Below are positions 9,679 through 34,452 of a DNA stretch of 43,049 nucleotides, in pieces. The position numbers and the translations under genes were made by a program. The DNA is from an uncultured Patescibacteria group bacterium (GTDB lineage: Bacteria; Patescibacteriota; Microgenomatia; UBA10105; UBA927), in contig CAKZSU010000003.1 of the NCBI GenBank assembly GCA_937921305.1, positions 180,599 to 223,647 of the forward strand. The letters are read 5' to 3'. Under the pieces are notes generated by a model, which was not told where the DNA came from, made no database searches, and saw nothing but the letters and a program-made list of their open reading frames with translations. The first letter of the stretch is position 1. The number at the start of each line of letters is the position of its first letter.

Positions 9679-10314
9679 TCAAACCGCGCCTTTTCCAGTA
9701 ATCATTGCCCATGGACTTTTCAGCAGGATGATGAGATCAAAGAGGATAGACTGTCGTTGCACATATTCCGCGTCCATCTGAATTCGCTTATCGAAATTCA
9801 CTTGACTTCTTCCTGATATCTGCCAATACCCTGTCATGCCTGGCTTTGCCGACAACACGACTTTTACCAACTCTCGCGTTTGCGGAAATTTTTGTTGTTG
9901 CTCTTCAAGCTCGTCTGGATAATACGGACGAGGTCCAACTAAACTCATTTCCCCTTTGATCACGTTGATAAGCTGAGGAATTTCATCAATCGAGTGTTTT
10001 CTAATGAATTTTCCCACCCTCGTCACTCGAGGATCATTAACCAATTTATAACTATTGTGTTTATATTCGTGATATAATTTCGCCATTTTTGGATCTTTTC
10101 GCAGTATTTCATGCGCGTTCACAAACATTGACCGAAACTTAAAGAGCTTAAATAACTTCCCATCTTTTCCAACACGCTTTGGTGTATCCGCAAAAATCGG
10201 ACCGGGTGTATCCAGTACAATCGCAATCGCGGTAATCACACAAATAGGAAAGAAAAGAATCATAAGAATAATGCTTCCGACGATGTCGATAAGACGCTTG
10301 ACAATCGCGTACAT
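9679..10314 (-). CDS. Initiating sugar-1-phosphate transferase (monotopic phosphoglycosyl transferase, Bac_transf family)
   Basis: 211 residues, bacterial sugar transferase family (PF02397), small PglC-like form without the four extra helices of WbaP/WcaJ. It moves a sugar 1-phosphate from a nucleotide sugar to undecaprenyl phosphate at the inner face of the membrane, the first step of glycan assembly. Visible: re-entrant hydrophobic N-terminus (res. 8-33) with DTPGPIF, KFRSM, the catalytic Asp-Glu pair D110-E111 in SIDEIPQL, SLVGPRP (124-130), and the C-terminal KPGMTGYWQISGR. Substrate sugar cannot be told. Last gene of the 9679-25309 operon, 13 nt after manC. Confidence 0.94.
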   Translation of the reverse strand: MYAIVKRLIDIVGSIILMILFFPICVITAIAIVLDTPGPIFADTPKRVGKDGKLFKLFKFRSMFVNAHEILRKDPKMAKLYHEYKHNSYKLVNDPRVTRVGKFIRKHSIDEIPQLINVIKGEMSLVGPRPYYPDELEEQQQKFPQTRELVKVVLSAKPGMTGYWQISGRSQVNFDKRIQMDAEYVQRQSILFDLIILLKSPWAMITGKGAV

Positions 10315-10327
10315 AAAGAAGAATATG

Positions 10328-11410
10328 TTATGTTAATTTATCGTATTCTGTTCCAGATAAGCTTTCCACTAATTTTTTGATTTTTGGAACAGAAGATTTT
10401 TTGCATACCATAACGACATCAGATGTATTAACGACCAAGAAATCATCAAGATCAATTGTAACAACCATTTGATCAGTAAAGTTATAGACCAACGAATCTC
10501 TTGTGTCGGTAAGCAGCACTTTTCCTCGCGTCACATTTTGTTCTTGCGTCTCTTGCAAAGCTTCTTTAAGCGCTTCCCACGCGCCAATATCGCTCCATTC
10601 GATATTTTCAGAAATAACTAATCCATCCGCTGTTGACAATTTTTCTAAAATAGCATTATCAAAATGAATTTTTTCAACTTTTGGATAAATCGAGTGAAAC
10701 ACATCTTGAAATTCAGCGGTTTGCCACGCGTGGACGATTCGAGACAAATCGGCGTGAAGATTTGGCTCGTACTGTTGATATAATCCCCATAGAAACGACG
10801 GTGTTGTCACAAAATACCCGAGATTCCAAGCATGTTTTCCGCTTTTATAGTACTCTCCCGCCGTATTTTTATCAGGTCTGTACTGAAAATTCATTAATTG
10901 ATGCAATGATACGCCATCCTCGACGGAAACCACTTTTCCATACTCGATCCATCCCAAATTTTCACTGGGAAATCGAGGCTTTTGCGCGATAAAAACGATT
11001 TTTTTTGGATGTTGCTGAACAAATCCTGCCGCAATGAACAATAACCGACGAAACAATACTTCGTTTTTCACCAAATGATCGCTCCAGAGAATCGCCATTG
11101 GCTCATCGGAAAACTCTCTATTTAATATACCCGCCATCAATCCAACCGCCGGTCCGACATCTCGCATAGATGGTTCCCCTATCACATGATGAGGATCAAT
11201 AGTAGGCAATTGTTCTAATACAATAGGAACATACGGCTCGCTCGTCGCTATATAGATATCATTGATAGAAAAGTCAGGAAGCAGTCGGTCAACCGCCAAT
11301 TGAAGCGTTGACTTTTCTCCAACGATTTTTTCAAATTGTTTTGGCGATTTTTTCCTTGATAACGGCCAGAGTCGTGTTCCTTGTCCTCCGGCAAAAACAA
11401 CAATTTTCAT
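10328..11410 (-). CDS. manC: Mannose-1-phosphate guanylyltransferase (GDP-mannose pyrophosphorylase)
   Basis: 360 residues; makes GDP-mannose from mannose-1-phosphate and GTP. N-terminal nucleotidyltransferase signature FAGGQGTRLWPLSRKKSPKQF with GEPSMRDVGPAVGL, SDH and NAILEK/WSDIGAWEAL motifs. It is the short form lacking the phosphomannose isomerase domain of bifunctional ManC/AlgA. The ATG at 11410 overlaps the stop of the upstream GT4 as ATGA and begins MKIVVFAGG; the reading 30 codons longer, into that GT4, is not credible. It provides the donor for mannosyl transfer and is the precursor step for GDP-deoxysugars such as those the ColD/Fcl-like genes at 35754-37903 could make. Confidence 0.93.
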   Translation of the reverse strand: MKIVVFAGGQGTRLWPLSRKKSPKQFEKIVGEKSTLQLAVDRLLPDFSINDIYIATSEPYVPIVLEQLPTIDPHHVIGEPSMRDVGPAVGLMAGILNREFSDEPMAILWSDHLVKNEVLFRRLLFIAAGFVQQHPKKIVFIAQKPRFPSENLGWIEYGKVVSVEDGVSLHQLMNFQYRPDKNTAGEYYKSGKHAWNLGYFVTTPSFLWGLYQQYEPNLHADLSRIVHAWQTAEFQDVFHSIYPKVEKIHFDNAILEKLSTADGLVISENIEWSDIGAWEALKEALQETQEQNVTRGKVLLTDTRDSLVYNFTDQMVVTIDLDDFLVVNTSDVVMVCKKSSVPKIKKLVESLSGTEYDKLT

Positions 11411-12510
11411 AGACGAAATGACTTTTTTGTTTTGCTTATGAACGAACGCATGTTTTGTTTGAACGCGTGTTTCGAAAATTTTAACGCTCTTGATCGACAT
11501 TCAGTCGGATCAAATCGTTTATTTTGAAACATACGCACTGCTTCTATGATACTCTTTTCTGTCTGATCGTCAAATAAAACTCCTGTCTTTTCCGTTACGA
11601 TATCGGCGATACCGCTTCTTCTATACGCTATGACTGGTTTTCCGACAGATTGCGCCTCCGCCGCAGCAATTCCAAAATCTTCTTCTCCCGCAAACACAAA
11701 CGCATCGCAATGCTGATAATACTCAAGAAGTTTCTCATCTGTCAATTTCTCATGAATAAATGTAATCGTTGAACCAGCCAATTTATGAAGATACGACGCT
11801 TCTGATCCGTTCCCAATAACAACAAGTGGCAACCGCATGCGATTAAACGCGCGAATCAAGAGATCAATTCGCTTATATGGCACAAGACGAGCAACGACAA
11901 GAAAATATTCTTGAGGAAGATATCGGGGACGAATCGAATTTGAAGGAACAAATGTTTCAGTGTCCACCGGCGGATGAATAATTGCCGAGACTTCTCGATG
12001 ATAATACTGTTCTATTCGCTCCTTCACCAAGGAAGAAATAGCGATATACACATCGGGACGAGAAGAAAAATATAAATCCCACCTTTTTAAGGTGCTCCCA
12101 AATAAAGATAAAAATGCAGAAAAAATTGGATTGCGTTTATATTCATAATATCCGCTCCAAAGATATCGCGTTGGCGTCAAACAATAGCAAATATGAATGG
12201 CTTCTGGTTTTGTCAAAATATCTTTTGCTTCAGCCGAAGTAACAGAAAGAACAACATCGTATCCATCAAAATTAAACGATTCAAACGCAAACGGCGCGAG
12301 CCATGAATATAATTCATGCCGACGCGACGCAAAAGGAAATGCGTTTGCAAATGACGGATAAACCGTAAAATCATCCGCCCACGAAGCGCCTTGTTTGTCA
12401 AAAAATGCGGTATACAACGGCGCGTTCGGCCATATTTCATGAAGCGCCAATAAAACGCGCTCCGCTCCTCCAAACTTATTCACACGATCATACACAAGCG
12501 CAAGATTCAT
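11407..12510 (-). CDS. Glycosyltransferase family 4, WbaZ-like
   Basis: 367 residues, GT-B fold. N-terminal acceptor domain begins MNLALVYDRVNKFGGAERV, a WbaZ-type opening, followed by CYCLTPTRYLWSGYY. C-terminal donor domain has LVVARLVPYKRIDLLI and FAGEEDFGIAAAEAQSVGKPVIAY, with the retaining E-x7-E pattern. WbaZ enzymes are mannosyltransferases of O-antigen synthesis; the coupled manC downstream (ATGA overlap) fits a GDP-mannose donor, but that is inference. The 5' end overlaps the next GT4 gene by 23 nt. Confidence 0.9.
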   Translation of the reverse strand: MNLALVYDRVNKFGGAERVLLALHEIWPNAPLYTAFFDKQGASWADDFTVYPSFANAFPFASRRHELYSWLAPFAFESFNFDGYDVVLSVTSAEAKDILTKPEAIHICYCLTPTRYLWSGYYEYKRNPIFSAFLSLFGSTLKRWDLYFSSRPDVYIAISSLVKERIEQYYHREVSAIIHPPVDTETFVPSNSIRPRYLPQEYFLVVARLVPYKRIDLLIRAFNRMRLPLVVIGNGSEASYLHKLAGSTITFIHEKLTDEKLLEYYQHCDAFVFAGEEDFGIAAAEAQSVGKPVIAYRRSGIADIVTEKTGVLFDDQTEKSIIEAVRMFQNKRFDPTECRSRALKFSKHAFKQNMRSFISKTKKSFRL

Positions 12511-13585
12511 AGACTGTTTTTGTTAACTCAGCGAGCTTCTTCCAATCAAACCGGTCAAAAAACGATGATGGAATCTTCTGCATTCTATATCTTCCCCTTG
12601 ACAAAGTACGAAACGCCTCAACCCACGCATATTCATCGTGCTTTACAAACAATGCGTACGGATCAAGCAATTCACGAAACACGGGAATATCAGAAACAAT
12701 AACAGGAACATGGTGATACAACGCCTCCAACGCAGGCAATCCAAACCCCTCATGCTTTGATGGGAATACAAGAGCGCAAGCGTTCGCATACATCGAGGAA
12801 AGATCATCATCAGCAACATCGTGATAAAACAGAACATGCGATTGCATTCCAAGATTCCTTATCATCATTTTTAGTCGTTCATAAAAAAAATCATTTTTCC
12901 CAACAAACACCAATAATGGAGCATTGGGTTCTTTCTCTGAAAACAACTTGTAACTCCGTATTAACAATTCCGCGTTTTTATGAGGATACACATTCCCAAC
13001 ATACAGAAAATATGGTGATTGAACATATCTCTTTCTATTGATTTTTCTTTTAAACACATCGTCAATCCCTTCATAGGTGACAATAATTTTTCGTTCAGGA
13101 ACATGAAATGTCTTGACAATGTCTTTTTTCACCGTTTGAGAAACGGTCAAAATAATGCGAGCCTTTTTTACTCCAATCCAAAGAACGATACAGTATGCCA
13201 ACCATTTTGCGAGATAGAGTGGATATAGACGCGTTGACGCCTTCCCTGTTCGCATTTTCAAAATTGTAAGATCGTGAATGGTCGTCACAATCGATCGTGG
13301 ATAGAGCAATGGGACAGTAAAGTATGGCACATGCAATACATCAAGACATTCTCTTAAAAAGAGAAAGGGAAGAATAATCTGTTCGGCAAGAGTATGCCAT
13401 CGGATAGCAATTTTTCGTTTCGTCCATCGATCATTTAGAATCTTAAACGAATCATAAGATTCGGGAGATAAAAAAACCACATAGTCGTTTTCACGATCCA
13501 TTTCTTGCAGATACTTCACAAGGTTTCGTATATATCTTCCTACACCGCTTTCTTGGATCAATCGCGCATCAATTCCTATCTTCAT
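12488..13585 (-). CDS. Glycosyltransferase family 4
   Basis: 365 residues, GT-B retaining enzyme. N-terminal MKIGIDARLIQESGVGRYIRNL, then TTIHDLT and a SQTVKKDIVKTF segment; the C-terminal domain has LYVGNVYPHKN, NACALVFPSKHEGFGLPALEAL (E-x7-E) and VSDIPVFREL. This is the common mannosyl/rhamnosyl GT4 layout. The start at 13585 overlaps the upstream GT2 stop as ATGA; the alternative extension of 14 residues reads through that overlap and is rejected. Donor and acceptor unknown. Confidence 0.91.
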   Translation of the reverse strand: MKIGIDARLIQESGVGRYIRNLVKYLQEMDRENDYVVFLSPESYDSFKILNDRWTKRKIAIRWHTLAEQIILPFLFLRECLDVLHVPYFTVPLLYPRSIVTTIHDLTILKMRTGKASTRLYPLYLAKWLAYCIVLWIGVKKARIILTVSQTVKKDIVKTFHVPERKIIVTYEGIDDVFKRKINRKRYVQSPYFLYVGNVYPHKNAELLIRSYKLFSEKEPNAPLLVFVGKNDFFYERLKMMIRNLGMQSHVLFYHDVADDDLSSMYANACALVFPSKHEGFGLPALEALYHHVPVIVSDIPVFRELLDPYALFVKHDEYAWVEAFRTLSRGRYRMQKIPSSFFDRFDWKKLAELTKTVYESCACV

Positions 13586-14460
13586 ACCATTTTTATCCGC
13601 ATATCGATAATGAAAAAAATAATCCACATCATGACCCGAGGATATCGATCTTTGTAATGTTTCTGATAAAATAGTTTCATTGTTTCATAAAACGAACGAT
13701 CTGCTTTCCTCTTGATTGCTTTGTCAACGCTTTCTCTTCCACTTTGTTTCTTCTTATGAATAACAACGCAGTTGGGAACAAACAAAATTTTATACTGTCG
13801 TTGTTTTATTCGATATGCCCAATCGATATCTTCGCCGTACATAAAAAAATCTTCATCCAGGAATCCAATCTCATTAATCACGCGCCGTCGTATAAGAAAA
13901 AACGCCCCGCTTGGAACATCTATTTCATGCGTTTTCGAAAGATCTTTATAATACTGATGGTATTGAGAAAACAAACGACTTCGAGGAAACAATCGCTCAA
14001 GACCAATGATGTATGTGAACGCCGCCCATGGAGTTGGAAATCCTCTATGACACGCTGGATCGATCTTGCCAGAAGGAAAAACAAGTTTGCAGGTCGCCGC
14101 TCCCACTGTTGGATCCGAAAACACGGCAAGCGTTTTTTGTATTGCTCCTTGTTGTATCACTGTATCAGAATTCAACAACAGGATATACTCTCCTCTCGCT
14201 CTTTTTATTCCGATATTGTTGCCCTTCGCAAATCCATCATTCCGTTTATGAAATATGAAAGAGACAAATGAAACAAATGGTTTTTCTTTTGCCATTGTCT
14301 TCAATATCCTGACATACTCTGGAGAAGATGCGTTATCTACAACGATCACCTCCCAAGAGTCGTCATTTGTCTTCGCCGATACTATCGATTCCAAACAATT
14401 TCGCAATAATGTCGGCGTATTGTAATGAAGAATTATGATCGAGACCTGTATGCTTCCCAT
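13582..14460 (-). CDS. Glycosyltransferase family 2, rhamnosyltransferase-like
   Basis: 292 residues, GT-A inverting fold. VSIIILHYNTPTLLRNCL, VVDNASS, FAKGNNIGIKRARGEYILLLNSDT (metal-binding SD of the DxD type), PSGAFFLIRRRVINEIGFLDEDFFMYGEDIDWAYRI: the order and wording of WbbL-like rhamnosyltransferases. Start chosen at Met-Gly-Ser (14460), overlapping the upstream GT4 by 28 nt; the longer frame reading is only shadow sequence. Cytoplasmic, adds a sugar to a lipid-linked glycan; donor not proven. Confidence 0.9.
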   Translation of the reverse strand: MGSIQVSIIILHYNTPTLLRNCLESIVSAKTNDDSWEVIVVDNASSPEYVRILKTMAKEKPFVSFVSFIFHKRNDGFAKGNNIGIKRARGEYILLLNSDTVIQQGAIQKTLAVFSDPTVGAATCKLVFPSGKIDPACHRGFPTPWAAFTYIIGLERLFPRSRLFSQYHQYYKDLSKTHEIDVPSGAFFLIRRRVINEIGFLDEDFFMYGEDIDWAYRIKQRQYKILFVPNCVVIHKKKQSGRESVDKAIKRKADRSFYETMKLFYQKHYKDRYPRVMMWIIFFIIDMRIKMV

Positions 14461-15614
14461 AAAGATGAAAGATTCGTCGCTATTTGCGACCATATATATC
14501 GTTCTTCAATAAGCTCCCTTGCTTGCTTGACGATCTGATCGTGCAAAGATGAATTCTGAAAAATGAATTCAATAGCATTACCCCAATCAGTAAGATCGTC
14601 AACGATGAGGCAATGCTTTTTGTGAATCAGGGGCAACCCTTCCGCTCCTTTTGCTGTGGTTATCACCATTCTTCCAGACGCCATCGCCTCGAGAATTTTA
14701 TACTTGGTTCCTCCTCCAATACGAATAGGAGCAAGGACAATATCAGATTCGTATAAAAAGTCTCGAATGTCTTCAACTTGAGGAATATATGTTACAGAAG
14801 AATGAAATCGCTTCCACTTTTTCGGAAGATCTTGACCAATAATTTTCAATCTTGCATAAGGAAATCGATGATGAATAGCTGGCCAAACAACATTAAGCAA
14901 CGCGTCAAGCGCGTCCACATTTTGAATCCAACGAAAATTTCCAACGAATAAGCAGGTTGCATCTTTCTTATTGATAGTTTTGGGACGATACAAAAAAAAT
15001 GTTTCATCAACACCATTTAGAATCACATGAACATGTTCTGGTTTTACTTTCCGCATCGCATCAGCATCTTCTTCTGAAACGGCAACAACAGCTTGAGCTT
15101 TTTTCCACGAGTATTCTTCCCAATATCGCAATTTATAAACATCTCGCCGCATCAATGAAGAAAGAAGAGGATACCGTTTGTATTGATCAGCGTATGATTG
15201 ATAAATTGTGTACTCAATATTGTGCTCACACACTACAAGCGTTTTCAAATCTAGTGATTCAACAACAGGCCATACGTACGCCGGTTCAATATGAACAATA
15301 TCATTGTTCAAAACTTTTTGTTGAACAAGTGTTTTCATTTTTTGAATATTATATGTACTCATAAGAAATGGGTAACGTCCTATCAATGCCTGCATCATAT
15401 ACGAAATGTTCCATGCATATCCTCGGAAAATAGGAAAAACTTCTTTGCAAAAAGATAATTTAGAAACATATTCTAACTCTTCTTTTCTGCGAATAAACGC
15501 GCATAATGTGATTGCATGTCTTTTCGACAATCTTTTAAGCAAATTATATATTCGAACTTGTCCGCCAGAATACAAAGGATATGGAAATATTGCAGAAATA
15601 AAAAGAACATTCAT
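14433..15614 (-). CDS. Glycosyltransferase family 4 (subtype with GGG-T-K-x-LEA motif)
   Basis: 393 residues, GT-B. N-terminal MNVLFISAIFPYPLYSGGQVRIYNLLKRLS, CEHNIE, then VAVSEEDADAMRK and ILNGVD. The donor domain has LFVGNFRWIQNVDAL and LAPIRIGGGTKYKILEAMASG, typical of the subgroup often annotated as sugar transferase of the PEP-CTERM/WbpH type. There is a 6-nt gap to the ArnT-like gene upstream and a 28-nt overlap with the GT2 downstream. Substrate unknown. Confidence 0.9.
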   Translation of the reverse strand: MNVLFISAIFPYPLYSGGQVRIYNLLKRLSKRHAITLCAFIRRKEELEYVSKLSFCKEVFPIFRGYAWNISYMMQALIGRYPFLMSTYNIQKMKTLVQQKVLNNDIVHIEPAYVWPVVESLDLKTLVVCEHNIEYTIYQSYADQYKRYPLLSSLMRRDVYKLRYWEEYSWKKAQAVVAVSEEDADAMRKVKPEHVHVILNGVDETFFLYRPKTINKKDATCLFVGNFRWIQNVDALDALLNVVWPAIHHRFPYARLKIIGQDLPKKWKRFHSSVTYIPQVEDIRDFLYESDIVLAPIRIGGGTKYKILEAMASGRMVITTAKGAEGLPLIHKKHCLIVDDLTDWGNAIEFIFQNSSLHDQIVKQARELIEERYIWSQIATNLSSLWEAYRSRS

Positions 15615-15620
15615 TGTGTT

Positions 15621-17057
15621 TTATTTTAATTCAATAATCGCAAATCGATCATTTCTCACAAGCAATGAATATCGATTGGCAAGATCTTCTGTTTCAGCGT
15701 CAAATGGGCTAATCGTTATATAATATGTCGCGCCTTGATCGATTTTTTGTTCTATATCGAATCCAATCGGCCATCCTTGGCGCTTCGTCTGATATAAAAA
15801 TGTCGTATCGCCATTATATGGCGCGATAACTTTCGCATCTAACGGAGCTATCGCATGAATCACTTTGCCTGCTTCTATAATCTCTGGCTTATTAATCCAG
15901 TAAAATCCGCGAACATGGTACCAAGAAAAAGCGCATGTAAATGCTATAACAGCGATGAACAAAAGTCTTGAAATCGTCTTGTGAAAAACTTCTGGTGGAT
16001 AAAGAAAAACATTTGCTCCCTTTGCCAAGAAAAAAGAAACACATGGAAGCAACAAGATTTGATAATAATCATGTTGAACATTTCCTCGCGCAATTACGAT
16101 AAGATACAATAACGAACCAAGTAGCAAAAAAAACGACCATATGCGATAATGTATTGATTCTTTTCGAAGAAGTCCAATAACAAACACTGCCACACCCCAA
16201 TATCCAAGGATCAATTTTCCTATTCTCTCAGCAAACAACCAATAAAACCAAGCGCCTTTAAATCGAATATTCCCTTCATTCAATAACCATGTATACGCTG
16301 GGATCCCCTCTGGAAAATTCGCTATCCACTGTCTCCATAAGAATAACGGACCAATAGAAATACCAAAAATAATCACGTAAAACGCTATGCTTCTCAATGA
16401 ACATCGGAAACGCGCAAGGAACATCCATGCCAAAGGAATTAATAAAAATATAGCAAACGGTTTAACTAACAATGCAAGAGATGCAAAGATCGCAGAAATC
16501 ACCGCGAAAATATATGCTTTATGCCCCTTATCAATTCTCGAGATATGAGCGAACACGAGAGATACCAATGATAACGCCACCATCAACGGCTCGGGCAATA
16601 TCGCTCTCCCGTAAAAAACGTTAAACGGAAGAATAGCGAAAAAAAAGGCACTCCCAATTCCTATTACTTTATTTCCAAATTCTTTTCCCAACCATCCCAG
16701 CGCGCCTATTGAGACAACCGACGCGATAATTGAAACAATACGAAGCGATTTCTCAATAGATATCCCAAAAGATTCAAACATGCGATAGACCACAACACCG
16801 AAAACTTGATAGAGAGGAAACTCAACCATACGATATCCCATCGGATTATCCTTTCCAGATTGAATATTTGAGAGATCATCATATCGAGGACGAAGGGGAT
16901 CAACGCCAAATCGAAGAAAATTTCTTGCTACAGCCGCGGTATCCGCTTGTCTCCAGCTATGCCAATCAGCAACTGGAGACTCTATCTTATATAACCGAAA
17001 GATGGCTCCTAATACGGAGATCAACACAATGCTCAACAAAAATATTCTATCGTTCAT
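15621..17057 (-). CDS. ArnT/PMT-like GT-C membrane glycosyltransferase
   Basis: 478 residues with about 11-12 membrane helices. The first outer loop carries DWHSWRQADTAAVARNF, with D39 in the position of the catalytic/metal Asp of GT39/GT83 enzymes, and RAILPEPLMVA follows in the next loop. Such enzymes use polyprenyl-phosphate sugars outside the membrane to glycosylate lipids, glycans or proteins. A roughly 90-residue soluble tail (about 385-478) lies outside. Spacing: 3 nt from the fused ligase gene upstream. Acceptor cannot be told from sequence. Confidence 0.88.
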   Translation of the reverse strand: MNDRIFLLSIVLISVLGAIFRLYKIESPVADWHSWRQADTAAVARNFLRFGVDPLRPRYDDLSNIQSGKDNPMGYRMVEFPLYQVFGVVVYRMFESFGISIEKSLRIVSIIASVVSIGALGWLGKEFGNKVIGIGSAFFFAILPFNVFYGRAILPEPLMVALSLVSLVFAHISRIDKGHKAYIFAVISAIFASLALLVKPFAIFLLIPLAWMFLARFRCSLRSIAFYVIIFGISIGPLFLWRQWIANFPEGIPAYTWLLNEGNIRFKGAWFYWLFAERIGKLILGYWGVAVFVIGLLRKESIHYRIWSFFLLLGSLLYLIVIARGNVQHDYYQILLLPCVSFFLAKGANVFLYPPEVFHKTISRLLFIAVIAFTCAFSWYHVRGFYWINKPEIIEAGKVIHAIAPLDAKVIAPYNGDTTFLYQTKRQGWPIGFDIEQKIDQGATYYITISPFDAETEDLANRYSLLVRNDRFAIIELK

Positions 17058-17060
17058 AAG

Positions 17061-20045
17061 TTATTCTTTAACCACTTGCTGCAGATTGTATGCCTGATCA
17101 AATTCAAACACAATTTTTGCAGAATCTTTTTTATGAGGATAGGCAAATGCTTCTTCAACAGAATTCACTTGAACAATATCAAATGGACTTTCTCGATACA
17201 TATGCCACAACGCATCGGCAAGACCAGTAGGAAAAATCCACGCGTTTCCGTATCGAATCGGTGTGTTGACATACACAAATGTTTTATGCTCTAAAAGAGG
17301 GAAATAATGTTGTCTCATCGTTTGAAGCGTTCTCTGCGTAACAGAAGCAGCAAATGTCCATTGCTCTTCCAAACGACGCAATTCACTATAATTCCAAAGA
17401 GACGACAAAAGAACTATAAAAACAGTCGCTCCTTTCAAAATGAAAGAAAAATTACTCCACACGCGATGAAGTAGCACTCCTCCTAAAAGAATAAATAGTC
17501 CAGACGCGTACAACGTATAACGATCAGTCGCTCCACCCAACCCAAGATACATACTTAATGTAAGAAGAAATGAACCAAGCAATACAAGCACCCATCGCTC
17601 TTTTAATATCACCGTTTTGTATTTCCATACGATGAAGCTCACAAAACTAATACTAATAAATCCTCCAAATGTGATAATCGACGCGTATGATCGCATCGCT
17701 CCGCGGATCGATGCAATTTCTTCTATAACCCTCGGTCCCAAAAGGATTCCGCCAATATATGCGATAAAATTCGCAATACTATTGGGAATAAATCGCGCAA
17801 GATTGTACCCGTAATCTCCAGATGGAGGAACTGCATTTGCGGAAGATCGAAGAAACAGATACAACGGAATCATGACAAGCAATGGCATCGACGACCTCCA
17901 CTTTCTATATCCAAATCCTCCAAAAAGCAAAACAATAACCGGAGCGACAACCATAATGTCATAAGAGAACATCGAAAGAAACAAAAGAGACACCCCGCTT
18001 ACATACCAAATCTTTCCTTTTTTTAATCCGCTCCAAAAAAAGAGAAAACAGAGCAACGATCCCAAAAGAAAAACATATCCCAGCAGATGACTATGATTCG
18101 AAATCCAGAACACAGATTCATGATGAACGGACATCACAATGTAAAATGCAATGAGAAAAATACGAAGCATCCGTTGAACGCCAAAAAACGAAAGCAATGA
18201 CGCCAAAAATAACGCGCTTAGACCAAATAATAGTATCGAAGCAATATGATATGGTTGAGGCAATAACCAAAACACAGAAAACAAAAGAAAATACCATATT
18301 TTTGGAATTGGACGATAGAAAAATCCGGAAGAATCAGTGAAAAAGGAAGGAATATCATCGAATTTTGCTTCGGCAGCCCATCGAAGCCATGTAAAATCGT
18401 CTCCGATAAAATACTGAGGAACTGATCGTTGATATACAAAAAATACAAATGCAAACAAATACACTGTGTACGCGAGAGGATTAAAGAAAAATCGTCGCAA
18501 TACCGAAACATACGATAGATCTAACTGATATCGAGAGAGTATCGCCATCGCGAACCCAAGCAATAGCCACAGCGTAAACGCGACTTTTGACGCCTGAAAC
18601 ACATCAATAAGCACCGCGTTCAAGAGTAATCCGGCAATTCCCGCGAATAACCCAACAAAAAAACCTAATTCCAATCCCTCAAGTTTATCTCTCAGCTTAA
18701 AAAAAGCGTAAAAACTATAAATAAGAATGCCGAGAAACGATATCGTTCCAAGCAGTCCTGTTTCGCCAAGAAGGCGATGATAATTTCCGTCAGCCGCAAG
18801 TGAGAGCGTGGAAAATCCGCTTCCAAGGAATACATTTCGAGAAAAAGCTTCTATTGCTCTTGGCCATTGACCCTGAAACCGTGTGGTAATGGAAATATCC
18901 AACACAAAGGCTTTCTGAATAAGGAAACTGCCTGAGACCGTCGCTATTTCTCCAGAACCAGTGGCAAGATTTTTCTTTTTTATGATCTCGACGCGTTGGA
19001 TAGACGATGACGATGTGCTTGTGATTGTTGATGTCAAAGTCACAGGAACAGAGATAAACCCGCTTCCTTTCGGAAGATTCTCTTCATCGGGAGCAGCGAT
19101 AGGTTCAAGGGTTACAGCATCTCCTTCTAATTTTGCGACCGATCCAATCGGCTTTCCTGTTGACAAGTCAACAATCACATCATCAAATCGCAATGTTTTC
19201 AGAAATCGTTCCGTCGCACCGGTCACAAAATTCACTGAAATAATGCTCGCGACTACAACAGGAATAATCAATATCTTCTTCTTTCTCCACCATAACATGA
19301 GAGAGATAGCAACAAGATAGACCCCAAAGGAAATTCTCGAAGCTGTAAATAGGAGAAGAATAAACGCACACACAGTCACAACAAACAAAAGCACTTGATA
19401 TGCCCTATGTTTCAGCGAGAAAATAATGCTTCCCAACAAAGGAATAACAAGAACAAGGTATGCAGCCAAGTCATAATGTCCAGCGAATGTTGACATAACC
19501 CGCGCCGTAGGAGGAAGTCGAAGAGGAATACCCTTTGCGAATTCTTCATTCATCGTGGAAAATGCTGGCCATCCATAGTATTTTTGCCCCACCCCATAGA
19601 CAAATACAGTAAACACTGTTAACGAAAGGATAATAACAATCCACTTCAATCGATGTTCAACACGCTTTATTGCCCAGAATCCAACAAAAAACAATCCCAT
19701 ATATTCAATCCCTCGAAGATAAAATAATGCCGCCACTTGAGGAAAAAACCCTGGGAGACGATGCCCAATAAACAACAGAGAATTTAGAAGGGAAAGTAAT
19801 CCTACAATCCAGTACACAATAATCGGAATGGTTAATGGTGTTTTGAAACGATCTTTTGTCTTAAGAAGGATAATCCCCAAGACGACATAGGAAAAAACTA
19901 CGACAAAATCTTCAAGACGAATATCGACCCACGTTCCCACGATATCAACCAACGGTCTCTTTGGAAGAAGAGGAATAAACGCAATCAAAAATATGCTGAT
20001 CAAAAATAACGCGTTATGATGAAAAAACCGCAAGAGCTTTCGCAT
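17061..20045 (-). CDS. Fused O-antigen ligase/polymerase-like + GT-C-like membrane protein
   Basis: 994 residues in one uninterrupted frame. Residues about 1-505 are a WaaL/Wzy-type membrane protein: AGHYDLAAYLVLVIPLLG (189-205), the FTASRISFG helix start (233-241), a long outer loop (about 275-400) and GSGFSTLSLAADGNYHRLLGETGLLG (408-433). Residues about 515-994 are a second multi-span unit with QYFIGDDFTWLRWA (D549, D550) and FYRPIPKIWYFLLF in its first outer loop, the layout of GT-C enzymes with an Asp-Asp site. The protein could polymerise or ligate glycan and transfer a sugar from a polyprenyl donor in one chain. Its 5' end overlaps a GT2 by 32 nt. Domain order is read from motifs only. 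Confidence 0.85.
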   Translation of the reverse strand: MRKLLRFFHHNALFLISIFLIAFIPLLPKRPLVDIVGTWVDIRLEDFVVVFSYVVLGIILLKTKDRFKTPLTIPIIVYWIVGLLSLLNSLLFIGHRLPGFFPQVAALFYLRGIEYMGLFFVGFWAIKRVEHRLKWIVIILSLTVFTVFVYGVGQKYYGWPAFSTMNEEFAKGIPLRLPPTARVMSTFAGHYDLAAYLVLVIPLLGSIIFSLKHRAYQVLLFVVTVCAFILLLFTASRISFGVYLVAISLMLWWRKKKILIIPVVVASIISVNFVTGATERFLKTLRFDDVIVDLSTGKPIGSVAKLEGDAVTLEPIAAPDEENLPKGSGFISVPVTLTSTITSTSSSSIQRVEIIKKKNLATGSGEIATVSGSFLIQKAFVLDISITTRFQGQWPRAIEAFSRNVFLGSGFSTLSLAADGNYHRLLGETGLLGTISFLGILIYSFYAFFKLRDKLEGLELGFFVGLFAGIAGLLLNAVLIDVFQASKVAFTLWLLLGFAMAILSRYQLDLSYVSVLRRFFFNPLAYTVYLFAFVFFVYQRSVPQYFIGDDFTWLRWAAEAKFDDIPSFFTDSSGFFYRPIPKIWYFLLFSVFWLLPQPYHIASILLFGLSALFLASLLSFFGVQRMLRIFLIAFYIVMSVHHESVFWISNHSHLLGYVFLLGSLLCFLFFWSGLKKGKIWYVSGVSLLFLSMFSYDIMVVAPVIVLLFGGFGYRKWRSSMPLLVMIPLYLFLRSSANAVPPSGDYGYNLARFIPNSIANFIAYIGGILLGPRVIEEIASIRGAMRSYASIITFGGFISISFVSFIVWKYKTVILKERWVLVLLGSFLLTLSMYLGLGGATDRYTLYASGLFILLGGVLLHRVWSNFSFILKGATVFIVLLSSLWNYSELRRLEEQWTFAASVTQRTLQTMRQHYFPLLEHKTFVYVNTPIRYGNAWIFPTGLADALWHMYRESPFDIVQVNSVEEAFAYPHKKDSAKIVFEFDQAYNLQQVVKE

Positions 20046-20880
20046 ACAGATTGAACATATCAGATTTTCGTATTATCCCACAGATGATCATAACAGACAA
20101 AGCTTTCAGCCTCAAAAGAATGCGAAGGATCGTTCTCTGATACGATGGAAGGTGTTTCGCATAGAAATAATCTAATCCTCGATAAATTTGAACCACCGGC
20201 TCTTTTTTGCCTCCTGAACTTGCTGCGCCAAGATGAATCACATGGGCATCTGGACAAAACCACACCTTATACCCTTTCTTTTTTGCTCGATAAAGAAACT
20301 CTATTTCCTCCATGTACATAAAAATCGACTCGTCAAATAATCCTACATCAAGAAATGATGCTTTCTGCCCTAAAAGACACGCGCCAGACACCCAATCAAC
20401 CCGTCTTGCGCGATTTGGAGAATATCTTGTGATATGAAGCTGATCTCCTTTACAAAATAGCATACAGAAAACGACAGGAAGCGTATAAAACGGACCTGCG
20501 GACGGTTGCGGCGTTCCATCCTCGTTATACAATTTTGCGCCGACAAACGCCTGTTTTTTTTCTTTTGCAAACAACAGCAATCTATCAATCGACCCCTCTT
20601 TCGCTCGACAATCAGAATTTAATAACAATATATATGATCCTTTTGCTCTCTTGATTGCCTGATTGTTTGCTTTTCCATATCCAACATTCTCATTATTTTG
20701 AATGAGTGCTACATACGGATATTTCGTTCTGACCATATCAGGAGAACCATCGATAGAATGATTATCAACAACAATCACTTCATGAGATGTTTTTCCTAGC
20801 GACGCAAGACATGCGTCGAGGAGGTGAATCGTATTGTAGCTGGGAATAATAATCGTAAGTTCCGGCGTTTTTTCCTTCAT
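20014..20880 (-). CDS. Glycosyltransferase family 2, rhamnosyltransferase-like
   Basis: 288 residues. LTIIIPSYNTIHLLDACL, VIVVDNHSIDGS, YGKANNQAIKRAKGSYILLLNSD, DWVSGACLLG and FDESIFMYMEEIEFLYRAKKKGYKV mark a WbbL-like GT2. In the acidic motif the second position is Glu-Glu rather than Glu-Asp (MEEIEF vs GEDIDW in the GT2 at 13582), a mild variation. Start taken at ATG 20880; the frame is open to a TTG at 20892, which is weaker. A 12-nt gap separates it from the acetyltransferase upstream. Confidence 0.9.
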   Translation of the reverse strand: MKEKTPELTIIIPSYNTIHLLDACLASLGKTSHEVIVVDNHSIDGSPDMVRTKYPYVALIQNNENVGYGKANNQAIKRAKGSYILLLNSDCRAKEGSIDRLLLFAKEKKQAFVGAKLYNEDGTPQPSAGPFYTLPVVFCMLFCKGDQLHITRYSPNRARRVDWVSGACLLGQKASFLDVGLFDESIFMYMEEIEFLYRAKKKGYKVWFCPDAHVIHLGAASSGGKKEPVVQIYRGLDYFYAKHLPSYQRTILRILLRLKALSVMIICGIIRKSDMFNLYAKALAVFSS

Positions 20881-20892
20881 GAATATGCACAA

Positions 20893-21486
20893 TCATTGAA
20901 ATAACTTCGCAAATTTCAGTGTATACCGAAGATCTCGAGAACGTTTTCGCATCTCCTTTGCGGGAATGCCGGCGACAACTGAATATTCTTCGACATCTTT
21001 TGTCACCACCGCTCCAGACGCGACCACCGCTCCTCGCTTTACATGAACTCCGGGTAAAATTGTTACCCGGGTCCCAATCACCACATAATCATCAATCGTC
21101 ACAGGTTCAGATCGCTCCGAAAAGTCAGGACTATCAATATCATGTTCCATTGTATAAATTCTTACTTCACCAGCTATGGAAACATTATTGCCAATTTTTA
21201 ACGGACGATAGGAGGGATTCAAAAAGTCTCGCATATATCGAATAAATCCTTTTGATGTCTTTTCTCGTTTATATCGACCATCGAGAAATGCGTCATTCCC
21301 AATAATTGTGTTATGACCAATTTCAATCCCGGCGGGATTATTAAATTCAGCTCGCCAATGGATTGATGAATCGTTGCCAATCTTCATTCGAAACACATGT
21401 CGATATAACCATAATCGGATAGTATGACTCGGAATATAGCCCACCAAAATAGAACAATACACCCAAAAATCAATAATCCCTCTCAT
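20893..21486 (-). CDS. Left-handed beta-helix acyl/acetyltransferase
   Basis: 197 residues. Hydrophobic N-terminus (about 8-28), then hexapeptide repeats: IHWRAEF, GIEIGHNTIIGNDAFLD, LKIGNNVSIAGEVRIYT, VTIDDYVVIGTRVTILPGVHVKRGAVVASGAVV and SVVAGIPAKEMRKR. MEHDIDSPDF holds the likely catalytic His. Best match is the maltose/colanic-acid O-acetyltransferase (WcaF/WbbJ-like) group, acting as a trimer with acetyl-CoA on a sugar. It overlaps the GT4 upstream by ATGA, so it probably O-acetylates the glycan made by this operon. Confidence 0.92.
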   Translation of the reverse strand: MRGIIDFWVYCSILVGYIPSHTIRLWLYRHVFRMKIGNDSSIHWRAEFNNPAGIEIGHNTIIGNDAFLDGRYKREKTSKGFIRYMRDFLNPSYRPLKIGNNVSIAGEVRIYTMEHDIDSPDFSERSEPVTIDDYVVIGTRVTILPGVHVKRGAVVASGAVVTKDVEEYSVVAGIPAKEMRKRSRDLRYTLKFAKLFQ

Positions 21487-22580
21487 AGCTCTCCCTTTCC
21501 CACACGTTCAAGGATGTCCAACGTTTGCTTCGCCGCCGTTTCCCAGGAAAATAATTGAACTCTCTTCGCTCCTTGTTGGATTCGTTTTGTATTGTCTTGC
21601 GTTATGGCTTTTCGTAATCCATCAGCAATACTCTCAACATCATTGGGATCTACATATATTCCCGCTTCTCTAGCAATTTCAGGAAGACTTGACACATTAC
21701 TTATCACTACAGGACACTCATGCGCCATCGCTTCAAGAACAGGCAACCCAAACCCCTCATACAAACTTGGCAATGCAAAACACACCGCATTCTTGTATAA
21801 CGATGGCAATTCCTCGTCAGGAACAAAATCTAAAAATACAACGCGATCTTGTACGCCAAACCGCTCTGGCGCAGAAATAATCGATTCATATAACCATCCC
21901 TTTTTCCCAACAATAACAAGCTCTCCCTCAAATTCGTTTAAAAGAGAAAACGCCTCGATTAATCGTTCATAATTTTTTCGAGGTTGGAGTGTGCCAACAG
22001 AAAGAATATATGGTCTTTTTCTTTTATTTTTTTGAATATTTTTTTTATTCATTGAAAAACCAGGGTATGTCACAAAAATACGCTCTTTCGGATATTTATA
22101 CGCTTGTATTATAGCATCACGCGTAAATTCGCTTATCGTACATATTGCTCTTGCATGACTCACCGAATACTTTGTCCCATGAAGCAATTGATAATAATCC
22201 TTTGGTCGAAACAATCTTGGAAAGTATAAAAAGGAAAGATCCATAATCGCAACAACCCGCGGATAAGGAATATATCGAGGCATGTAATGCGTTGGAGAAA
22301 ATACAACGTCAACTGACGGTCTATCAATGAGTAAATGCATAGGAAGTGAAAGAAAGGTCCAAAACCGCTTTGGAGAACAAACCTTATACTCCCATCGATC
22401 TGAACATTCAGGAAAATCAGCAAAGGGATTTTCAGGAAGATACACGCGAACACTCGTTTTTGAATGATCTCTTTCTTTATGAAGGATCGCATGGATATGA
22501 CGCATGATCTGGTAGGCATATTGACCTATGCCAACGCGCCGGTGTGTATTCGCCTCATACCCATCAATTGCGATGATCAT
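21483..22580 (-). CDS. Glycosyltransferase family 4 (mannosyltransferase-like)
   Basis: 365 residues, complete GT-B enzyme. N-terminal MIIAIDGYEANTHRRVGIGQYAYQI, DVVFSPTHYMPRY, VAIMDLSFLYFP, TISEFTRDAI and FVTYPGF; donor domain with ILSVGTLQPRKNYERLI, VGKKGW, FALPSLYEGFGLPVLEAM (E-x7-E) and ISNVSSLPEIA. This is the layout of many alpha-mannosyltransferases. It is coupled by ATGA overlaps to both neighbours and directly follows the half-length GT at 22577, whose start is nearly identical. Confidence 0.92.
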   Translation of the reverse strand: MIIAIDGYEANTHRRVGIGQYAYQIMRHIHAILHKERDHSKTSVRVYLPENPFADFPECSDRWEYKVCSPKRFWTFLSLPMHLLIDRPSVDVVFSPTHYMPRYIPYPRVVAIMDLSFLYFPRLFRPKDYYQLLHGTKYSVSHARAICTISEFTRDAIIQAYKYPKERIFVTYPGFSMNKKNIQKNKRKRPYILSVGTLQPRKNYERLIEAFSLLNEFEGELVIVGKKGWLYESIISAPERFGVQDRVVFLDFVPDEELPSLYKNAVCFALPSLYEGFGLPVLEAMAHECPVVISNVSSLPEIAREAGIYVDPNDVESIADGLRKAITQDNTKRIQQGAKRVQLFSWETAAKQTLDILERVGKGEL

Positions 22581-23131
22581 AATCTATCAAATCCCGGATA
22601 CACCACAGTCATGCTCTTTAGTGGAATGCCAAGGAATTTATGAGCATCCTGTCGCGTCGATTCTGAATCACAAAAAAAATAAGCGCAGACAGTTCTTGAT
22701 CGCTGCATTTTCTCTCTATGTGTTGTCACGATATTCAATGAAAAACTTTCAGGAAAACGATATACCGTCAGATCATGAATTGTTGTCACGCCTTTTGCTT
22801 TCGAGAGAGGAGGTTGCGTCCAATCGCTGCTCCAAAATACATCAACATCGCCAATGAACCATTCAACCGGAACAACATGAAGTCTATTCCAAATAAACAC
22901 AAGGAGTGTTGGCGGTAAGGGAAAAACCTTTAATATAACTCTCCGCTTTGCTTCGTCTGGAAGCGAAGAAAAGAACTCATAAAACATGCGTCGTTGACGA
23001 AGGGACGAACCAAACAAAATATATCGATGGCGCGAACCTTGAATAATCACCTCTCTAACCATTCGTTCAACATACCGCCCAACTCCCGTCCCTTTATAGA
23101 CAATTTGACTAATATCAATACCAATGATCAT
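22577..23131 (-). CDS. Half-length GT4: N-terminal domain only
   Basis: 184 residues matching only the N-terminal Rossmann half of a GT4: MIIGIDISQIVYKGTGVGRYVERMV, DVFWSSDWTQPP, VTTIHDLTVYRFPESF, CDSESTRQDA and TVVYPGF. The frame stops three codons after YPGF, the point where the complete neighbour (21483) enters its donor-binding domain. The whole nucleotide-sugar-binding half, including the E-x7-E motif, is absent. Nonetheless it is framed by ATGA overlaps on both sides, so translation coupling is intact. It may be a remnant after deletion, or an accessory half-enzyme in the manner of Alg13/Alg14. Activity alone is unlikely. Confidence 0.8.
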   Translation of the reverse strand: MIIGIDISQIVYKGTGVGRYVERMVREVIIQGSRHRYILFGSSLRQRRMFYEFFSSLPDEAKRRVILKVFPLPPTLLVFIWNRLHVVPVEWFIGDVDVFWSSDWTQPPLSKAKGVTTIHDLTVYRFPESFSLNIVTTHREKMQRSRTVCAYFFCDSESTRQDAHKFLGIPLKSMTVVYPGFDRL

Positions 23132-24120
23132 ACATGCTCATACCCATGTGGATGCGTGGTGTGCCACTTCCACGCGGAAGAGACAATCGTTTGAATATCA
23201 GAGTATTGGGGTTTCCATCCAAACGTAGTCATAATTTTTTGAGGATTCGCCACAAGAATATTTGGATCTCCCGGTCTTCTTGGTTTTTCAATGACAGGAA
23301 AATCCCGTTGCGTTATATTTTTTATCGCTTCAACGACTTCTTTGTTAGTAATCCCTCTTCCAGTGGCCACATTAAAGACATCTGTTTGATGTCCATTTGC
23401 TAACGCGTCAAGAGCAACCAAATGCGCTGAACAAAGATCTTCAATGTGAATATAATCTCGTTCGCATGTTCCGTCTCTTGTTTCGTAATCAGTCCCATAC
23501 AAAAAGAATTCTTTTCGGTGCCCCATCGCTGTTTTTATAGCAAGAGGAATAATATGCGTTTCTGGATCATGCGCTTCTCCATATTCTCCGTCCAATGACG
23601 CCCCACAGGCGTTAAAGTATCGAAGACTTATCGACTGGATCGTCTTTTTCCTGCTATATACGGACAACAGATGCTCAAAAGAAAGTTTCGAAACGCCATA
23701 CGGACTCACGGGATTCTTTGGATGATCTTCGGGAATCGGAACAACCTCCGGAAATCCATATACCGCCGCGGTAGAAGAAAAAATAAGATACCTTACTCCC
23801 GCTTCCTCCATCGCCTCAAGCAATGAAACCGGACGAATGATATTATTCACCATGTATTTAATCGGGTCCCGAACAGATTCCTCCACCAACAAATAGCCAG
23901 CAAAATGAATAACCGCGTCAATGGTATACTCCTGCAAAATGCGAAGAACCGTTTCTTTATCGCCAACATTGCCAACCACTAACGGAATTTGATCCGGTAT
24001 TGACGCTTTGTGACCGTGCTCTAATGAATCAAGAACAACAGGGCGAATCCCTTTTCTTGCCAACACTCTCACCATATGGCTTCCAATATATCCAGTGCCG
24101 CCAGTCACAAGAATATTCAT
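23128..24120 (-). CDS. galE: UDP-glucose 4-epimerase (GalE-like)
   Basis: 330 residues, extended short-chain dehydrogenase. NAD site ILVTGGTGYIGSH; catalytic Ser in SSTAAVYG and YGVSK with Tyr/Lys; GalE-type FNACGA, HIIPLAI, YGTDYETRDGTCERDYIHIEDLCSAH and the C-terminal FGWKPQYSDI. Interconverts UDP-glucose and UDP-galactose (possibly N-acetyl forms). Start: ATG 24120 gives the canonical N-terminus and lies 12 nt after an AAAAGGAG Shine-Dalgarno, one of the few good ones here; an in-frame ATG at 24132 would overlap the small gene upstream by ATGA but abuts the SD. It overlaps the half GT by ATGA. Confidence 0.93.
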   Translation of the reverse strand: MNILVTGGTGYIGSHMVRVLARKGIRPVVLDSLEHGHKASIPDQIPLVVGNVGDKETVLRILQEYTIDAVIHFAGYLLVEESVRDPIKYMVNNIIRPVSLLEAMEEAGVRYLIFSSTAAVYGFPEVVPIPEDHPKNPVSPYGVSKLSFEHLLSVYSRKKTIQSISLRYFNACGASLDGEYGEAHDPETHIIPLAIKTAMGHRKEFFLYGTDYETRDGTCERDYIHIEDLCSAHLVALDALANGHQTDVFNVATGRGITNKEVVEAIKNITQRDFPVIEKPRRPGDPNILVANPQKIMTTFGWKPQYSDIQTIVSSAWKWHTTHPHGYEHV

Positions 24121-24128
24121 AAGGTCAT

Positions 24129-24368
24129 TCATCTCCTTTTACTTTTATATTTTACTGCACATTGTCTCTTCTCAGGAATAATCAAACTCGCCAGAATGAA
24201 CACGCTTCCATACCATATCAACCGTTCCGCGGTAAAAAATATCCATGCTGAAAATAACGGAATGGCAAGGATATAGCAAAGAATACCAGCAACAAGAAAT
24301 AACTTCGGAATTCGTATAGAAAAAAGAACACTAAACATCGCTAGAAACACAATATCTTGCAGCTTCAT
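24129..24368 (-). CDS. Small two-helix membrane protein
   Basis: 79 residues, no recognised domain. Hydrophobic segments at about res. 5-40 (likely two short helices) and 45-63, with a basic tail (KRQCAVKYKSKRR) facing the cytoplasm by the positive-inside rule. It overlaps the UDP-glucuronate decarboxylase by ATGA, and the downstream galE Shine-Dalgarno lies inside its 3' end, so it is a genuine operon member. I believe similar small proteins recur in CPR glycan clusters, but no function is known. Confidence 0.75.
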   Translation of the reverse strand: MKLQDIVFLAMFSVLFSIRIPKLFLVAGILCYILAIPLFSAWIFFTAERLIWYGSVFILASLIIPEKRQCAVKYKSKRR

Positions 24369-26376: not shown

Positions 26377-27482
26377 CGATTCCTTTTGTTGACCTTTCGC
26401 GCATTCACAGACCATTAGAAACAGAATTTTTTAAGGCAGTACAATCTGTGATACATAACAACGCATTCATCCTTGGAGAAGATGTCTCGAAATTTGAAAA
26501 AACATTTTCGTCTTCCGAAGGAGCAAACCATGGCATCGGGGTAGCCAATGGGACAGACGCAATTCTTCTCGCGCTGAAAGCATGCGGCATACGAAAAGGC
26601 GATGAAGTCATTCTCCCGTCTCACACATTTATCTCAACCGCTCTCGCCGTCACATACGCTGGAGGAACTCCAATGTTCGCCGATATTGAAGAAGATTCAT
26701 ATACGCTAGACCCATTGTCTGTAGAAAAACGAATAACAAAAAAAACAAAAGCGATTCTTCCTGTTTCTTTATACGGTCAACCGCCGAACATATCAGCGCT
26801 TATGAAACTCGCAAAGGCATACAACCTCTACCTTATCCTTGATAACGCGCAAGCGCATGGAGCAACATATAAAAATAAACCGCTTGGTTTGTATGGTCAT
26901 GCGTGTTGTTATTCATTCTATCCTGGTAAAAATTTGGGGGCGTTTGGCGATGGTGGAATCCTTATCACGAATTCTTCTCGAATAGCTCGTCGCGTTTCGC
27001 TATTAAGAAATATTGGCAGAACCGCTTGGTACCATCATGCAGTCAAAGGATATAATAGTAGATTAGACACAATTCAAGCAGCGATTCTTTCCGTTAAACT
27101 GAACCATCTTCATCAATGGACGAAAGAACGACAAATGATAGCAAAACGATATGAAGAATTGCTTCAAGGTTTGCCGATTATATTACCAAAAAATCTTTCA
27201 GATCGAACGCATGTCTTTCATTTATATGTTATTCGCGTAAAGAATAGAAATGATTTTATGAAGTATTTAGAAGAACACGGTATTCAAACATCCATTCATT
27301 ATCCAGTTCCAATCCATAAACAACCAGCGTATAAAGAATATCGTCATATTTCACTACCTGTAACAGAACAAGTGGCAAAGGAAGTTGTGTCTCTTCCTTT
27401 TTTCATTGGCATGACCGAACAAGAACAGGAGTATGTGGCTCATCACATACAACGATTTTTACAGACATCCAAAAGTATGTGA
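26373..27482 (+). CDS. DegT/DnrJ/EryC1-family PLP sugar aminotransferase
   Basis: 369 residues. N-terminal IPFVDLSRIHRPLE, NGTDAILLAL (58-67), FISTALAVTYAGGTP, LDNAQAHGA with PLP-binding D157, and SFYPGKNLGAFGDGG, where K186 is the Schiff-base Lys. The YPGKNLGA motif and the Gfo/Idh partner resemble 3-aminotransferases (WbpE, FdtB group) that convert 3-keto sugar nucleotides to 3-amino sugars with glutamate. The last 40 nt overlap the 3' end of the convergent membrane-protein gene. No acetyltransferase follows directly, so N-acylation would need the GNAT or LbH enzyme elsewhere. Confidence 0.94.
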   Translation: MTIPFVDLSRIHRPLETEFFKAVQSVIHNNAFILGEDVSKFEKTFSSSEGANHGIGVANGTDAILLALKACGIRKGDEVILPSHTFISTALAVTYAGGTPMFADIEEDSYTLDPLSVEKRITKKTKAILPVSLYGQPPNISALMKLAKAYNLYLILDNAQAHGATYKNKPLGLYGHACCYSFYPGKNLGAFGDGGILITNSSRIARRVSLLRNIGRTAWYHHAVKGYNSRLDTIQAAILSVKLNHLHQWTKERQMIAKRYEELLQGLPIILPKNLSDRTHVFHLYVIRVKNRNDFMKYLEEHGIQTSIHYPVPIHKQPAYKEYRHISLPVTEQVAKEVVSLPFFIGMTEQEQEYVAHHIQRFLQTSKSM

Positions 27483-33797: not shown

Positions 33798-33798
33798 C

Positions 33799-34452
33799 TT
33801 ACTTCTTCGCAATAATTAATGTTGTTGAAACAAATCCTTGCCAAGGAACATATCGAGGAATCATCATGCCCCAAAGAATAGGAGGAACAGAAAGAGGAAA
33901 TGTTTTCACATTTAAAAATCCTTCTGTCATAAACAAAGTCTTCCAAAAAAAAGGAAGATGAACATTTACATGTGTTGGGTCAGTCATATTCTTTGCATAT
34001 GGATATGGCGTGCTTCCAATGAAATATCCACCGCGTTTTAAACGTTTAAAAATATTCTTCACAGCAATACCAACATCTGGAACATGTTCAAGGACTTCAA
34101 ATGCAACAACAAAATCATATGTTTCCTTATAAGGAAAAGTTTCCATGATATTGTAAAAAAAGAAATCTATATGTGGAGAAATTTTTTTTGCTTTCTCGAG
34201 TATTTTTCGAGAAATATCTGTTCCCACTGGCATGGAGCCTTCTTCATACAATAAAGAAACAAACGCTCCGATACCGCATCCTATCTCTAACACCTTAGTA
34301 TTTTTAAATTCAAATTGCTGATTCTTTTTTATGTATGCAAGCCAATTCTTGTACCATCGTTTATACTTTGCTATATCTTCATTGCTCCAATCATCCTTCT
34401 TTGGTTTATATCGTGTATAAAAATATGAATCCCAGTTAATATTATTGCTCAT
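33799..34452 (-). CDS. SAM-dependent methyltransferase (class I)
   Basis: 217 residues. Motif I VLEIGCGIGAFV (about 54-65), acidic GTDIS after strand 2, VAFEVLEHVPD (motif IV region) and LKRGGYFIGSTPYP. This is the UbiG/Methyltransf_11 type. In a polysaccharide operon a sugar O-methyltransferase or glycan-capping role is plausible, but small-molecule substrates cannot be excluded. It is 12 nt after rfbH and 1 nt before the 888-residue membrane protein gene. Confidence 0.9.
   Translation of the reverse strand: MSNNINWDSYFYTRYKPKKDDWSNEDIAKYKRWYKNWLAYIKKNQQFEFKNTKVLEIGCGIGAFVSLLYEEGSMPVGTDISRKILEKAKKISPHIDFFFYNIMETFPYKETYDFVVAFEVLEHVPDVGIAVKNIFKRLKRGGYFIGSTPYPYAKNMTDPTHVNVHLPFFWKTLFMTEGFLNVKTFPLSVPPILWGMMIPRYVPWQGFVSTTLIIAKK

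Follow-up and report, generated by a model that had tools for sequence, protein, structure and literature searches.

The window, a 43,049-nucleotide stretch from the genome of an uncultured Patescibacteria group bacterium, carries on its minus strand a conserved surface-glycan gene cluster (Table 1). The cluster encodes a phosphoglycosyl transferase, a ManC-like NTP transferase, GT4 and GT2 enzymes, an acyltransferase, GalE and one protein in which two membrane glycosyltransferase modules are joined in a single chain. These modules are called here the N-half and the C-half; the family of the C-half is designated CA, and that of the second GT-C protein, encoded by the next gene downstream, CB. 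The open reading frame of the fused gene starts with ATG and comprises 994 codons without internal stops. It shares its first 32 bases with the upstream GT2 gene, and 3 bases separate its stop from the start of the CB gene.

Table 1. Features of the fused gene and of its surroundings, in window coordinates.
Feature	Position	Strand	Basis
Conserved surface-glycan cluster	9679..24132	-	Pfam; same order in relatives
Whole fused gene, 994 aa	17061..20045	-	ORF; AlphaFold2 model
N-half, residues 1-505, 12-TM WaaL/Wzy-type (GT-C_B) module	18531..20045	-	Pfam Wzy_C; Foldseek 7tpg, prob 1.00; topology
R237 (TASR motif), putative pyrophosphate ligand	19335..19337	-	hhalign versus E. coli WaaL R215
Residues 272-421, extracytoplasmic: variable loop rich in Ser/Thr, then catalytic loop	18783..19232	-	Model, topology, loop lengths
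R389 (TTRFQGQWP), invariant in 46/46 and 58/58	18879..18881	-	Order and motif, versus WaaL R288
D419, invariant Asp at the WaaL catalytic His position, putative acceptor-activating base	18789..18791	-	Alignments; PMC10920833
C-half, residues 508-994, TMTC-like GT-C_A module (CA)	17064..18524	-	Own model; Foldseek prob 1.00
D549-D550, first outer loop, putative catalytic/metal Asp pair	18396..18401	-	58/58; equivalent of TMTC DD motif
Y577-R578-P579, counterpart of YRP in the TMTC SHKSYRP motif	18309..18317	-	Alignment; PMC7801869
Residues 915-994, small C-terminal alpha/beta domain past the last TM helix, without TPR	17064..17303	-	Secondary structure of the model
Second GT-C (PMT_2, ADWHSWRQADT motif; CB), constant partner of the N-half	15621..17057	-	Pfam, CB HMM, synteny

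The neighbourhood is kept in genomes with the fused and with the unfused protein. An acyltransferase and a GT2 gene lie upstream; downstream, the conserved order is CB, GT4, GT2, GT4, GT4, the ManC-like gene, the phosphoglycosyl transferase and DUF4012. The DUF4012 protein of the window (7612-9642, minus strand) adjoins the phosphoglycosyl transferase and occupies the same place in several relatives. A half-length GT4 of 184 aa, with only the N-terminal Glyco_transf_4 domain, is encoded beside a full-length GT4 (22577-23131, minus strand). Relatives have the half-length form in the corresponding position (180-242 aa), so it is no local truncation. Four large multi-TM proteins of 650, 606, 893 and 743 aa without Pfam match (27443-33812 and 38235-40466, minus strand) have their genes interspersed with sugar-modifying ones, in a region of reduced GC content (about 0.26-0.39). 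Searches with HMMs built in this analysis for the N, CA and CB families showed them to be unrelated to all three; possibly they are additional membrane glycosyltransferases, encoded where the cluster is variable. Elsewhere in this 970-kb, 97%-complete genome are Wzx-type flippase candidates, a full-length ArnC-like polyprenyl-phosphate sugar synthase and an LCP-family protein.

An initial annotation had read the frame as a single 994-residue protein joining an O-antigen ligase/polymerase-like half to a GT-C-like half. The reading frame and both predicted folds agree, and it is confirmed that one gene encodes the two modules. All of the motifs on which that reading relied are present: FTASRISFG (residues 233-241), GSGFS (408-412), NYHRLLGETGLLG (421-433), D549-D550 and FYRP (576-579). 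A full-chain AlphaFold2 model, computed with 58 aligned sequences, reached a pLDDT of 85.4 and a pTM of 0.85, and the two halves join at about residues 505-511. When the full model was compared with the PDB by Foldseek, the top match was WaaL (7tpg; prob 1.00, TM 0.59 over the target), followed by Pmt4, Pmt1-Pmt2, OST-B and ArnT. The C-half modelled alone scored still higher (pLDDT 94.8, pTM 0.93). Its credible matches were ALG12, STT3B, ArnT, Pmt4, Pmt1-2, AftA and DPY19, and those of high probability were exclusively GT-C_A glycosyltransferases. Foldseek E-values were modest (0.005 for WaaL with the full model, 0.0014 for the leading match of the C-half) beside probabilities of 1.00; this is expected for such distant membrane folds, and the argument rests on the probabilities and on the consistency of the hit lists. 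At the sequence level, the PDB gave chance matches only, whether searched with each half, an N profile or a profile of C-half relatives; a PHROGs search gave no match. One continuous known fold is excluded: each half resembles a different set of solved enzymes, and the C-half folds without the N-half.

A domain search of the two halves, which the initial annotation had suggested, was informative for the first half only. Pfam matched the window protein with Wzy_C alone (PF04932; residues 223-430, E 5e-5), at 23.4 bits and thus below the curated cut-off of 31.7. Four relatives in which the N-half is fused to CB score above it (42.6-53.7). NCBIfam gave weak IctB and PEP_O_lig matches to the N-half, and no PglL model of Pfam or NCBIfam matched the window protein; the C-half had no Pfam match. 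Model, Foldseek and topology agree that the N-half has the WaaL fold: it spans the membrane with 12 TM helices, and a long outer loop lies close to its C-terminus. Lysine and arginine make up 29% of inner loops and 9% of outer loops, as in a positive-inside topology, which places the DD loop of the C-half outside as well; because the N-half has an even number of TM helices, both active sites lie outside. The residues that never change among 46 N-type sequences, fused and unfused, include R43, D46, R111, E114, Q154, N166, E168, Y191, D192, R280, R389, W394, D419, R424, E428, D481, S486 and K487. In the model, nearly all of these are in or near the outer face of the membrane, with R111 and E114 lying 9-12 residues down a helix.

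The long Ser/Thr-rich outer loop described earlier is real: serine and threonine account for 22% of residues 285-383 and 12.7% of the whole protein. Its description as a special insert did not hold, as the span from R280 to R389 varies between 45 and 141 residues across a comparison of 46 family members that covered unfused proteins too.

The second half had been described as a GT-C-type module with D549-D550 and FYRP in its first loop, and the GT-C_A fold together with the invariance of D549, D550, R578 and P579 (58/58 sequences) bears this out. TMTC1-4 O-mannosyltransferases make up CAZy family GT105. They carry a DD motif and a motif ending in YRP in the first outer loop (PMC7801869), and the C-half has both, as do prokaryotic TMTC-like proteins of the same GT-C_A fold. 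The C-half differs from TMTC1-4 in its short alpha/beta tail, which stands in place of TPR repeats, and in the WaaL-type module fused N-terminally. Neither Pfam nor the model revealed C-terminal TPR repeats in the window C-half, whereas they are found in three aligned relatives. ArnT, PMT, STT3 and ALG12, which are GT-C_A enzymes using polyprenyl-linked donors, share the fold; their sequence similarity to the C-half is low, and their loops and tails are different. One more TMTC-like gene is present elsewhere in the genome. The C-half could be a TMTC/PMT-like protein O-glycosyltransferase acting on secreted proteins, with the fusion merely co-localising two enzymes that work on different glycans. 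The DD and YRP motifs, the Pmt4 and Pmt1-Pmt2 fold matches, and the stand-alone relatives in the class, which include TPR proteins and weak matches to TMTC_DUF1736, speak for such a role, but the missing TPR region, the modification of glycolipids by ALG12 and ArnT (also among the top folds) and the embedding of the C-half in a glycan cluster make it unlikely.

Among the sampled genomes of the class (Microgenomates), 245 of 280 contained a match to the query, and in about 49 of the 280, from 8 family codes (counted from the rows listed), both halves are in one frame. An alignment query run against GTDB genomes yielded 65 loci, whereas a single-protein query yielded none. In nearly all of these loci a single frame holds both halves, and most come from named Gottesmanbacteria, Levybacteria, Woesebacteria, Roizmanbacteria and Shapirobacteria, which identifies the class as Microgenomates. 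The same fusion, proposed as something to look for in other CPR genomes, is present in many genomes of this class. The sampled genomes from the rest of the phylum gave only six N-type matches at E<1e-15, all of them weaker. The architecture with both halves was aligned in 58 ORFs, the window ORF included, and R389, D419, D481, D549, D550, R578, P579, R733 and R842 are invariant in all 58. Across sequences of 30-50% identity, both halves thus keep their putative catalytic and phosphate-binding residues.

It had been considered that a missed stop codon near residue 510 might have merged two adjacent genes, either in assembly or in gene calling. This explanation has practically no probability left: the same fusion occurs in many independently assembled genomes, which rules the artefact out, the fusions of N-half and CA form a single supported clade, and split relatives are broken elsewhere than at the domain boundary. 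Three such broken copies were seen (L102:6001-9045, L137:6001-8966 and L144:5980-9128). Their breaks, which lie within the N-half and leave overlapping or neighbouring frames, are either real frameshifts or assembly errors.

The chemistry of the N-half is less straightforward than its fold. The identification of the first half as WaaL/Wzy-like stands on the match to 7tpg, whereas ligation has to be qualified, since the catalytic His of WaaL (H313; H338 in E. coli) is replaced by Asp, D419, in 46/46 and 58/58 aligned members. WaaL binds the donor pyrophosphate with two Arg residues. In a profile alignment (hhalign, 97% probability), the nearly invariant R237 corresponds to R215 of E. coli WaaL. 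R389 and D419 were equated with R288 and H338 of the same enzyme by order and motif, using the E. coli motifs and an alignment to the Wzy_C paralogues that the window genome encodes; both lie outside the hhalign span, so that these two assignments are softer. At the catalytic position, HN has become D-G/N in the N-half family, while four of the five other Wzy_C proteins of the window genome have HN. These five are many for a genome of 0.97 Mb; one of them (L158) has a TPR-like tail in a frame of 719 residues.

Within clan GT-C1, O-antigen ligases use His, and SEDS proteins and most polymerases have Asp or Glu at the same position (Meitil et al., PMC10920833). The N-half has the Asp and the conserved outer-face Arg of Wzy-type and SEDS enzymes of this clan (GT119, GT125-GT129; PMC10920833), from which it differs in being placed in none of these families, in being fused and in coming from a genome where Wzz was not found. 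With WaaL (CAZy GT121; 7tpg) it shares the fold, an Arg (R237) that aligns with WaaL R215, and a catalytic loop that follows the last long outer loop and precedes the next TM helix. Unlike WaaL, it has the invariant Asp, conserved motifs specific to the class (TMNEEFAKG and FAGHYDLAAY among them) and a fused glycosyltransferase. PglL/PilO-type O-oligosaccharyltransferases have a catalytic His and PglL-specific domains; in the N-half the His position is taken by Asp, and no PglL model matched. WaaL-TPR proteins, of which L158 is apparently one, also combine a Wzy_C module with another domain; that partner is a soluble repeat domain and not a second membrane glycosyltransferase.

LpxC, an enzyme of lipid A synthesis, was not found in the window genome, while control genomes were positive. 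Attachment to lipid A is therefore unlikely, and with the invariant Asp also considered, so is a ligase in the LPS sense. As judged from its sequence, polymerase-like chemistry appears at least as likely as ligation for the N-half. The Asp favours a polymerase, but the constancy of the family and the failure of a whole-genome Pfam search to find the chain-length regulator Wzz leave ligation open. One reading is that the N-half acts as a ligase or O-oligosaccharyltransferase that would transfer a finished glycan to a surface protein (e.g. S-layer or pilin) or to peptidoglycan, with the C-half modifying or extending the glycan. The WaaL fold as closest solved structure, the class-wide presence of the family in a conserved cluster, which suits one constant attachment step, the lack of a Wzz match and the five other Wzy_C proteins, to which a polymerase role could fall, all agree with it. 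The exchange of the His of WaaL- and PglL-type enzymes for an invariant Asp weighs against it, as does the neighbourhood, in which no acceptor protein was identified, and this reading is regarded as doubtful.

The CB gene of the window matches Pfam PMT_2 above cut-off (E 3e-7) and scores 536 bits with the CB HMM. In an HMM survey of the loci, a CB gene almost always follows the N-half on its 3' side. Most members of the class have an unfused N-half paired with CB, and at L032, L034, L036, L042, L062, L078 and L079 the N-half and CB are directly joined in one protein; in the window's set, CA is fused and CB is the separate next gene. At four loci (L040, L044, L139 and L150) CB lies 1.2-2.3 kb away. 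Another locus, L052, has no CB nearby and encodes a doubled N-type protein of 1277 aa (L052:5838-9671, plus strand), apparently two tandem WaaL-like modules and thus another fusion in the N family.

In a maximum-likelihood tree of 57 N-halves, all N-CA fusions form one clade (support 100/99) and the N-CB fusions fall in another (87/81); unfused proteins surround the two clades. The N-CA fusion therefore arose once, and the N-CB fusion was a separate event. The initial annotation had proposed a search for genomes in which the two halves are adjacent genes. This was not found for the N-half and CA; it is the N-half and CB that are encoded side by side, and the conserved partner of the N-half throughout the class is the downstream PMT_2 protein rather than the fused C-half.

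The almost constant pairing of the N-half with CB, and their fusion in another clade, suggest the formation of a complex. They would also suit a protein with only one active half, the other being a catalytically dead scaffold or lipid-donor funnel that assists its partner half or the downstream PMT_2 enzyme. That is improbable in view of the putative catalytic and phosphate-binding residues, which stay invariant in both halves over the identity range given above.

The fused protein is probably a bifunctional extracytoplasmic enzyme with two active sites, in which both steps are coupled in one chain. The fusion and its single origin, both folds, the conserved outer-face residues and the conserved context were computed; the activities, donors, acceptor and coupling we infer as follows. 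The phosphoglycosyl transferase and the GT2 and GT4 enzymes of the cluster would build an undecaprenyl-pyrophosphate-linked oligosaccharide inside the cell, which would then be flipped to the outside. There, the N-half, as an inverting GT-C_B enzyme of the WaaL/Wzy clan, would take up the Und-PP-oligosaccharide and either polymerise it or pass it to an envelope acceptor, with D419 as the base that activates the acceptor hydroxyl and R237 and R389 holding the pyrophosphate. The C-half, a GT-C_A enzyme, may use a polyprenyl-phosphate monosaccharide via D549/D550 and R578 and add the sugar to this same glycan or to the protein that carries it. Ancestrally, the N-half would have been a separate protein encoded beside the second GT-C, as in the next gene of the window, and an extra GT-C would have been fused to it once in the window's clade. 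The fusion would physically couple two extracytoplasmic sugar-transfer steps.

Both modules belong to known superfamilies. Open-licence papers, the part of the literature covered, contained no description of the fusion or of such enzymes in this group. That two proteins act together is strongly indicated when their genes are fused. The most interesting part is the repeated fusion to different GT-C partners: a WaaL/Wzy-type enzyme was fused twice, in related lineages, to two different GT-C proteins, and elsewhere its gene is a neighbour of one of the two. It is proposed, tentatively, that the N-half represents a new, almost class-specific, Asp-dependent family of the WaaL clan, which with one or two dedicated GT-C partners might form the core of a near-universal surface-glycan machine of Microgenomates, and that the independent fusions might reveal an undescribed complex of ligase/polymerase and GT-C. 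If so, transfer from lipid-PP-oligosaccharides and from lipid-P-sugars would take place in one complex at the outer face of the membrane. Structural studies of Wzy/WaaL mechanisms may then find in the fused protein a natural single-chain enzyme, and the family would offer a concrete, testable handle on how these uncultured bacteria build their poorly known envelopes.
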